A program made the translations under genes and the position numbers. The notes beneath the pieces were generated by a model that saw nothing but the letters and a program-made list of their open reading frames with translations, was not told the origin of the DNA and did no database searches. DNA of 38,324 bases from Microcaldota archaeon (GTDB lineage: Archaea > Micrarchaeota > Micrarchaeia > Micrarchaeales > Micrarchaeaceae): positions 1-38,324 of the forward strand of contig JAGWHI010000008.1 of the NCBI GenBank assembly GCA_028866905.1. The letters run 5' to 3'. This document shows positions 34,146-35,859 of this stretch, piece by piece. Positions within the stretch are counted from its first letter, which is position 1, and every line of letters starts with the position of its first letter.

Positions 34146-34181
34146 AACAAAAGCGCGGAGCTCAAGCTCGCCTGTTTTGTT
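34146..34181. terminator. Bidirectional hairpin terminator
   Basis: AACAAAA (34146-34152) and TTTTGTT (34175-34181) are complementary and surround an inner GAGCT-CA-AGCTC hairpin. Read on the plus strand it ends trmI; read on the minus strand a T-rich tract follows and can end the RNA transcribed from 34283. Confidence 0.65.
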
Positions 34182-34283
34182 AAAGGAAGGATAAGCATAT
34201 GGTGAGGCGTATGCGGATGCATACGCCCCGGGTGGATGAGAATAGGGTTGTTACAGAATTAGTGTAACCACCGAAATTCGGTG
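34182..34283 (-). ncRNA. Candidate structured non-coding RNA
   Basis: On the minus strand a TATA element (gtatttataaact, about 34301-34313) is followed about 25 nt later by consecutive hairpins. The first is CACCGAATTTCGGTG at 34283-34269. The second is GGTTACAC pairing with GTAACAACC around 34269-34246, with wobble pairs. The third is a perfect 9-bp stem, GGCGTATGC-ATCC-GCATACGCC, at 34227-34206. The terminator hairpin ends the region. No ORF of useful length is present and it does not resemble tRNA, 5S, SRP or RNase P RNA. It lies downstream of the TBP-like gene on the same strand, so an mRNA 3' region is an alternative. Confidence 0.45.
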
Positions 34284-34300
34284 CTATTGTATTAAATGGA

Positions 34301-34313
34301 AGTTTATAAATAC
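34301..34313 (-). promoter_or_regulatory. TATA box of candidate structured RNA
   Basis: gtatttataaact on the minus strand is a near-consensus archaeal TATA box. It lies downstream of the TBP-like gene and about 25 nt before the first hairpin of the candidate RNA. On the plus strand it faces only the antisense of the TBP-like gene. Confidence 0.5.
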
Positions 34314-34349: not shown

Positions 34350-34703
34350 TCAGATGGCCAGGTTGCCCACGGGCCTGCGCTTCGGCGGGTTGGCCCTGTA
34401 CTTCCTTATCAGCTCAACGGCCTGGTCGACAGCCCTCTTGACGTCGGCCCTGGTCCTCGTGCCCGTGCATATTATCTTGCCGTTCTTGAACAGCAGCAGC
34501 GCAGCCTTCGGGTCGTGCACCTTGAGTATCGCGCCAGGGAACTGCTCAGGCTCGTAGTCTATGTCGTGCGACATGTTTGCCAGGCCGTAGAGGTCCAGGT
34601 CTATCGCCAGGTCTGCGCTTGCGACTATGTTCTCTACCCTGTACGTAGGCTTTAGAACAACATGCTTGTGCGGCGGCGAAACCCTCGGAGAACCCTTTGC
34701 CAT
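34350..34703 (-). CDS. Single-repeat TATA-binding protein (half-length TBP)
   Basis: The 117-residue protein contains exactly one TBP repeat (about residues 20-105) instead of the two in normal archaeal TBP (about 180-190). Hallmarks are VENIVASADL with the DNA-contacting Asn25, YEPEQFPG with intercalating Phe55, and LLFKNGKIICTGTRT with Phe72. Together they give the full set of one repeat's DNA-contact residues. The N-terminus is Pro/His-rich and the C-terminus ends RANPPKRRPVGNLAI. It is a complete gene: a TATA box (about 34737-34746) lies upstream, aggtg precedes the ATG, and the stop is followed by another promoter, so truncation by sequencing is unlikely. It would need to dimerise to form the saddle. 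Whether a full-length TBP exists elsewhere is unknown. Confidence 0.85.
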   Translation of the reverse strand: MAKGSPRVSPPHKHVVLKPTYRVENIVASADLAIDLDLYGLANMSHDIDYEPEQFPGAILKVHDPKAALLLFKNGKIICTGTRTRADVKRAVDQAVELIRKYRANPPKRRPVGNLAI

Positions 34704-34736
34704 ATTTAAGCACCTTTTGGTATAATCTCCACTAGC

Positions 34737-34746
34737 CTATAAATAC
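34737..34746 (-). promoter_or_regulatory. TATA box of the TBP-like gene
   Basis: tatttatagg on the minus strand, with a transcript start expected about 34716, leaving a short leader containing aaaggtgc before the ATG. Confidence 0.55.
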
Positions 34747-34802: not shown

Positions 34803-35087
34803 ATGTCAATGAGATCGCACGGACTATTCGTCGGCAAGACAAGGCACCTCGCGAGGCACCACAAGCCATCGCGCCTTAGCGTCAGGCACGTGATAAAGAG
34901 CTTCAGCGTTGGCGACCGCGTCGCAATAATACCAAAGGGGAACCAGAAGAACATACCCCACCCGAGGTACAGGGGCCGCATAGGCAGGGTGGTGGAGAAG
35001 CGCGGCTCGGCGTACGTAGTCGAGGTAAAGATAATGAGCGCCAAGCGCACGCTTGTCGTCCCGTCGCTGCACCTCGACAAGGCGTAA
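34803..35087 (+). CDS. rpl21e: 50S ribosomal protein L21e
   Basis: The 94-residue protein matches L21e: VGKTRHLARHHKPSRLSVRHVIKSFSVGDRVAIIP, then PHPRYRGRIGRVVEKRGSAYVVEVK (only the key elements named: PHPRYRGRIG, KRGSAYVVEV) and a final HLDK. In many archaea L21e is followed by rpoF and a DUF655 protein; here those two are on the opposite strand, separated by an unknown gene. The ATG at 34803 or the next at 34809 may start it. Confidence 0.93.
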   Translation: MSMRSHGLFVGKTRHLARHHKPSRLSVRHVIKSFSVGDRVAIIPKGNQKNIPHPRYRGRIGRVVEKRGSAYVVEVKIMSAKRTLVVPSLHLDKA

Positions 35088-35118: not shown

Positions 35119-35859
35119 TTGTTGAGGCACTACAAGAACAGGATCCTGGACGGGCTGCTCGTCGCGGCAAAGACCACGGGCGACGAGGTGCAGAAGGACC
35201 CGATCTCTTTCAAGCGCAGCGTATCCTCCCTGACATCCGATGCGCTATCCGGCCTGCAATTCAGGCCAGAGGCCATCAACAGGTACCTGCAGCTGGTGTC
35301 CGGAAGGCCATCGCAGAAGCAGCAGGCGATAATAAGGGCGATGAACGCCTCCTTCGACGAGTTCGTCACTGCCGATGAGGTGAGCAGGTCCGTGGCGAAC
35401 AGGAGGCTGGATTCCGACGGCAGCACATACAGGCTACCGACGCTGGACGGCTGCATACCCACGTTCCTGATGCTCGGCATACTGCAGCACACGACCAACT
35501 CGGAGTACTACAGGAAAGGATCCCCCTACTACATGCAGAACATCTTCTTCGTGGACAAGCCGCGGCTCAGGAAATACTTCAGCGGCATAGACGGCTTCGC
35601 AGATGCGTACCACGCGATACAGCCGCGCACCATCATAAAGCACGATGGCAACGGGGGCAAGACAAGGGCCGCGATAAAGATACTGAAGGAGCAGCTCGGC
35701 GTTTCGCGCAAGAAGGAGCTTATGGAGAAGCTGCGCCAGGATCCAAGCCCGCTGGAAAACCTCTCAAGGATAGACTTCGCGCTAGCCAAGGTCAAGATAG
35801 CGCAGAACAGCATACCTAAGATAAAGGGCAGGATCAGGCGGATGGTGCAGGAGGACTAG
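35119..35859 (+). CDS. Hypothetical protein, 246 aa
   Basis: No family was recognised. The protein is soluble, mixed helical and basic (many Arg/Lys). The middle has LPTLDGCIPTFLMLGILQHTTNSEYYRKGSPYYMQN, and the C-terminal third is strongly basic and helical (KTRAAIKILKEQLGVSRKKELMEKL, ending PKIKGRIRRMVQED). Start is TTG at 35119 (or the adjacent TTG), with no ATG near. It sits between L21e and the convergent DUF655 gene, and their stop codons overlap in the palindrome CTAG. A nucleic-acid-linked role would fit the charge but is only a guess. Confidence 0.65.
   Translation: MLRHYKNRILDGLLVAAKTTGDEVQKDPISFKRSVSSLTSDALSGLQFRPEAINRYLQLVSGRPSQKQQAIIRAMNASFDEFVTADEVSRSVANRRLDSDGSTYRLPTLDGCIPTFLMLGILQHTTNSEYYRKGSPYYMQNIFFVDKPRLRKYFSGIDGFADAYHAIQPRTIIKHDGNGGKTRAAIKILKEQLGVSRKKELMEKLRQDPSPLENLSRIDFALAKVKIAQNSIPKIKGRIRRMVQED

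Follow-up and report, generated by a model that had tools for sequence, protein, structure and literature searches.

A TATA-binding protein (TBP) with only one lobe was confirmed in the DNA analysed here (hereafter the window, a stretch of 38,324 nucleotides from a Micrarchaeaceae genome), and this protein, TBP-A, is the cell's real TBP, its orthology being given by synteny. To our knowledge, transcription initiation in all archaea and eukaryotes has been held to involve a two-lobed TBP, and the idea that TBP arose from a homodimer has so far been a thought experiment. A large group of living organisms with only one-lobed TBPs makes the idea of an ancestral homodimer testable at the bench, and among them is Ca. 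Micrarchaeum A_DKE, for which a stable co-culture, a complete genome and RNA-seq exist. A symmetric TBP also raises the question of how the direction of transcription is set. Brindefalk et al. (2013) is reportedly the source for single-lobe archaeal TBP proteins. Such proteins, with one TBP lobe each like TBP-A, have been mentioned earlier (PMC7221094), which the first-pass annotation of the window had left out; the passage concerned says nothing of their being the sole TBP, of the genuine TBP locus or of a phylum-wide spread, and all three are addressed here. A survey of DPANN archaea lists TBP as conserved in a passage that is silent on lobe number (PMC8407392). In our literature search, no paper was found on a one-lobed TBP as sole TBP, on its locus or on its spread. 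What appears to be new is that one-lobed proteins are the only TBPs in a large part of a phylum.

The first-pass annotation had described a single complete TBP repeat in a gene with its own TATA box and ribosome-binding site and with a promoter after the stop. All these elements were located (Table 1), and Pfam returned for TBP-A one PF00352 match (E=2.4e-25; 88.6 bits, with the cut-off at 22.9), which covers positions 2-85 of the 85-position profile, and no other domain beyond this TBP repeat. With a single PF00352 match, TBP-A does not contain two lobes in one chain. A second repeat encoded by a frameshifted or adjoining sequence, named on the first pass as a danger to its reading, was ruled out, since none was found around TBP-A in any nearby frame. 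The gene recurs beside that for ribosomal protein L21e in dozens of genomes. For TBP-A and for a second one-lobed protein of the same genome, TBP-B, dN was 0.065-0.15 compared with a dS of 0.85 to saturation, and purifying selection acts on both. For TBP-A, dN was 0.08-0.15 and dS at least 0.85. Because of this recurrence beside L21e and a dN far below dS, TBP-A is no assembly fragment, as had been claimed. Furthermore, TTTATA was enriched in the window (19 observed against 7.4 expected).

Table 1. Positions of the TBP-A gene, its surrounding elements and an example of TBP-B (window positions unless a locus is named)
Feature	Position	Strand	Remarks
TBP-A coding sequence (one-lobed TBP)	34350..34703	(-)	117 aa; ATG start at the 34703 end
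Single complete TBP lobe of TBP-A	34398..34643	(-)	PF00352; residues 21-102
GGTG ribosome-binding site	34711..34714	(-)	7 nt before the TBP-A ATG; from sequence
TATA-like TTTATA	34738..34743	(-)	approximately 35 nt before the TBP-A start; in the spacer common to the divergent L21e gene
Palindromic TTTATAAA past the TBP-A stop	34303-34310		contains TTTATA 34305-34310 (-)
Ribosomal protein L21e, divergent neighbour	34803..35087	(+)	PF01157, E=1.3e-14
Hairpin-rich stretch 3' of the TBP-A stop	34150-34299	(-)	candidate small RNA or 3' element
Open reading frame downstream of L21e	35119-35859	(+)	246 aa
TBP-B example with ACG start	L002:1465-1824	(-)	

The AlphaFold2 model of TBP-A had a mean pLDDT of 91.5, and its best solved match by Foldseek was one lobe of the M. 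jannaschii TBP 2z8u (0.9 A rmsd over 78 columns). When 66 one-lobed TBPs (half-TBPs) were aligned, the DNA-contacting residues Asn25, Phe55 and Phe72, which the first-pass annotation had found intact, were invariant, and so was the stirrup Y-E-P-E-Q-F-P-G (residues 50-57). Strand S1 forms the contact between the lobes of ordinary TBP, and each lobe contributes one Asn at the dyad. The canonical archaeal TBPs (M. jannaschii 2Z8U, P. woesei 1AIS/1D3U and S. acidocaldarius 1MP9) share with TBP-A the lobe fold (approximately 41% identity to 2z8u), the intercalating Phe pair, the central Asn, the TFB-binding stirrup and the TFB partner. However, they have two lobes and a linker per chain, whereas TBP-A has one lobe and no linker and would need a dimer for the saddle. 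According to the relevant passage of PMC7221094, stirrup positions C.L3.2 and C.L3.4 contact Arg/Thr of TFB; by alignment to YEPE, E51 and E53 of TBP-A correspond to these two positions. The partner TFB is ordinary, and the genome's TFB (contig C26) has a Zn ribbon, two cyclin repeats and a PRT motif and scored 192 bits to the Pyrococcus TFB. The N-domain of RNase HIII (cited in PMC8131849 and PMC12917281) and the TBP-like domains of DNA glycosylases also have a single TBP fold, but they are parts of enzymes rather than basal transcription factors and are not close to TBP-A in sequence.

The L21e gene lies head-to-head with TBP at 106 of the 126 one-lobed loci that remain once TBP-B is set aside (12 loci with overlapping stop-to-stop frames included), at 29/29 Micrarchaeal two-lobed loci (a count that excludes L192 and L195, which are without L21e and have lobes of Iainarchaeal type) and at 17 of 30 Iainarchaeal loci. 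At the remaining 20 one-lobed loci, there was no L21e in the short flanking stretch examined. Judged by gene order, L21e is the conserved gene that marks the locus of the genuine TBP in Micrarchaeota and in part of Iainarchaeota. Since TBP-A occupies the same head-to-head locus, it is the orthologue of the genuine TBP and not a side gene.

TBP genes were detected with PF00352 throughout, so that a TBP unrecognisable to this profile would escape. The search for a second TBP gene suggested on the first pass was carried out on the whole window genome (885,590 bases in 31 contigs, approximately 90% complete); the PF00352 scan gave no two-lobed TBP and exactly two matches, both one-lobed and on separate contigs, TBP-A and TBP-B (contig C25). 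Exactly two matches, both one-lobed, were also obtained for the complete chromosome of A_DKE (NZ_CP060530.1). Since this genome, from a stable co-culture, is circular (989,838 bp; PMC8975820) and complete, incomplete assembly cannot account for the missing lobe. A single-contig genome of 771,545 bp (G015) had one TBP match only. In the sister family f2, exactly one match was present in 12 of the 16 genomes, one-lobed and A-type in the genes examined; therefore, a single gene must suffice there. The window's own family, Micrarchaeaceae (f1), had two matches in 27 of the 31 genomes with any match; where examined, A and B lay at different loci. The only full TBP in a family member, a two-lobed protein on an 8,383-bp contig (G009:C43, L003), was of a canonical-archaeal type unlike the others. 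It was not accepted as genuine, given the 8.4-kb contig and its sequence type, and is probably contamination from another archaeon. The half-TBP of the first-pass annotation is thus real, and a full TBP was detected neither in the genome nor in complete related ones; what that annotation missed is the second half-TBP paralogue, so that an A:B dimer is also possible.

In the lobe tree, TBP-B formed a distinct long-branched clade (support 100/99), placed among the half-TBPs rather than with the C lobes. Its S1 residues read I/V-Q-N and those of TBP-A read V-E/V-N, a pair that resembles the C and N lobes of ordinary TBP, respectively. A FAD-dependent reductase was present at 31 of the 35 TBP-B loci, and TBP-B was never in the slot beside L21e. 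In most Micrarchaeaceae copies, GGTG is followed after 5-6 nt by a conserved ACG, and in many cases an in-frame stop codon lies immediately before it. Moreover, 9 of the 35 genes in the TBP-B start listing, one entry of which (L013) is an A gene, were without any ATG, GTG or TTG in the stretch from the preceding stop to the lobe. TBP-B thus appears to start at the conserved ACG codon, which suggests a weak or self-regulated translation; the copies of the sister family and a few others have an ATG start.

A class-wide sample of 147 genomes, 136 of them with a TBP match, was compared, and lobe number was scored on open reading frames of representatives from each family. Only one-lobed genes were found in 15 families (f1, f2, f4-f7, f9, f11, f13, f15-f18, f21 and f24), the likely contaminant of G009 aside, and two-lobed genes in nine (f3, f8, f10, f12, f14, f19, f22, f23 and f26), with L101 (genome G130, family f12) as the sole one-lobed exception among the latter. 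The state that the first-pass annotation had treated as one odd gene is therefore common to most of the Micrarchaeota families sampled. The two-lobed TBPs of these nine families have the same L21e-linked locus and the same signature (YEPEQFPGAI...LLLFKNGK) as TBP-A; their lobes are 57-80% identical to each other, as against 42-55% for those of the canonical archaeal TBPs included. Iainarchaeota, the neighbouring phylum reached via a Diapherotrites MAG, were mostly two-lobed, and that MAG has a single 90-residue lobe. In four genomes of family f7 (G037, G045, G048 and G065), two or three TBP matches each were found, one-lobed where examined, and dimer mixing may be broader there. Many of the Iainarchaeota neighbours G154-G207 have, alongside a two-lobed TBP, an extra and very distant single TBP-fold protein of approximately 95-118 codons (E ~1e-5, profile 14-84). 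Viral contigs were rejected as a source of close relatives, their TBPs being almost all two-lobed and not close; one of them (L366:1986-2528) has two TBP lobes in one frame split by a stop codon, possibly two polypeptides.

In the lobe trees (81 columns, few canonical outgroups), one branch separated all canonical lobes, N and C together, from the entire set of Micrarchaeal and Iainarchaeal lobes (98/98; 99/97 in a second tree). Forcing all N lobes into one clade was rejected (64 log-likelihood units, AU p=0.003), and a single ancient lobe duplication is rejected with it. This result contrasts with the published picture, in which the TBP lobes of 34 species form two clades from one duplication (PMC4910066). 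In the full lobe tree, the Micrarchaeal N and C lobes grouped together among the half-TBPs (91/89), as re-duplication from a half would predict. We consider it reasonably probable that the one-lobed state is a secondary change: starting from two-lobed ancestors, several Micrarchaeal lineages would have lost lobes and/or recombination between near-identical repeats would have homogenised them. The mostly two-lobed sister phylum agrees with this reading. In addition, exact runs of up to 89 nt are common to both lobes in some two-lobed genes, and the one-lobed L101, which groups within the N lobes (99/89) and has a C-lobe-like end, looks like the product of a deletion between repeats. L100, a two-lobed TBP of f12, has an 89-nt stretch identical between its lobes, and it and L101 are likely traces of recombination between TBP lobes. 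Because of this identity and the deletion pattern of L101, the one-lobe and two-lobe states probably interconvert by recombination. Against a secondary change, an origin of the halves from a single Micrarchaeal lobe lowers the log-likelihood by 32-42 units and is disfavoured, although not rejected (AU p 0.09-0.125). That one lobe is primitive, with Micrarchaeota and Iainarchaeota never having had the ancient duplication, the two-lobed members having duplicated independently and living Micrarchaeota still transcribing with the homodimeric TBP that other archaea and eukaryotes had before the duplication, is in our estimation quite improbable. The comparison with both TBP halves recommended on the first pass thus rejected one universal duplication and did not separate a primitive lobe from loss followed by re-duplication or from homogenisation of lobes; TBP-A may be a relic of the ancestral TBP.

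As to how a one-lobed TBP may work, it is in our view probable that TBP-A, the real TBP, acts as a homodimer, with TBP-B perhaps in A:B dimers, and rebuilds the saddle on a near-palindromic TATA box. That the protein dimerises and binds TATA, and what TBP-B does, are inferred here; a dimer as the working mode, already raised on the first pass, is natural for a half-TBP and well supported as the main idea. Two TBP-A chains would pair edge to edge via strand S1, and their strands together would form the ten-strand saddle made by one chain in ordinary TBP. The dimer would sit in the minor groove of a near-palindromic, TTTATAAA-like TATA box, where the DNA kinks would come from four Phe, two per chain, and the ordinary TFB would be bound by the YEPE stirrup of one chain. 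Since a homodimer has no built-in direction, direction would have to come from TFB, set at the AA-rich BRE upstream. A lone lobe exposes its S1 edge, and a dimer would be the simplest way to keep the 8-bp TATA, the two kinks and the TFB stirrup. The single-gene genomes of f2 would use the homodimer and the window's family A:A or A:B; TBP-B, retained in that family, probably enters A:B dimers that serve as an alternative or have a regulatory function. Since most f2 genomes manage with one A-type gene, A:A is favoured in the window's family as well.

An obligate A:B heterodimer in Micrarchaeaceae, that is, a split TBP with its lobes on separate genes, A and B at different stirrup positions and asymmetry restored, would agree with the co-occurrence of A and B at separate loci in this family, with the distinctness and purifying selection of the TBP-B clade and with the likeness of the two S1 strands to N and C lobes. 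We nevertheless hold it to be rather unlikely, since most sister-family genomes manage with a single gene, A-type where examined, TBP-B branches among half-TBPs and not with C lobes, and its apparent ACG start suggests low expression. Even less probable is a half-TBP that binds half a TATA site as a monomer and relies on TFB for the rest of the affinity and for bending. Many archaeal TBPs do require TFB for stable binding (PMC7289017) and the lobe alone folds confidently in the AlphaFold2 model; however, the S1 strand and its Asn, which form the lobe-lobe seam in ordinary TBP, remain conserved, and the promoter boxes are full length and near-palindromic. Finally, the half-TBP could be a side factor, with an undetected full TBP or another protein reading the TATA boxes. 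The incompleteness of the window genome and the distant single TBP-fold proteins of the Iainarchaeota neighbours would leave room for it, but a full TBP is absent from complete and single-contig relatives, TBP-A occupies the TBP-L21e slot and the one full TBP of the family is probably contamination, which makes such a role extremely improbable.

The promoters of half-TBP genomes had AA-rich BRE-like bases together with TTTATAAA-like or TTTAWATA boxes; therefore, the standard promoter layout is kept. The relative asymmetry of the TATA box was 0.06-0.09 in one-lobed genomes, 0.15-0.20 in Iainarchaeota and 0.05 in one Micrarchaeal two-lobed genome, with overlapping bootstrap errors and with the comparison confounded by base composition. 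A homodimer would predict a more symmetric TATA box than two unlike lobes; the trend was in this direction but within error, and the Micrarchaeal two-lobed genome was equally symmetric.

Two further observations concern the surroundings of TBP-A. The open reading frame downstream of L21e was without a Pfam match and without a homologue in the other TBP loci compared. The stretch 3' of the TBP-A stop gave no Rfam match; it folds into several hairpins (z = -4.3, 0/200 shuffles as good) and has a TATA-like box of its own, and it is a candidate small RNA or 3' element.
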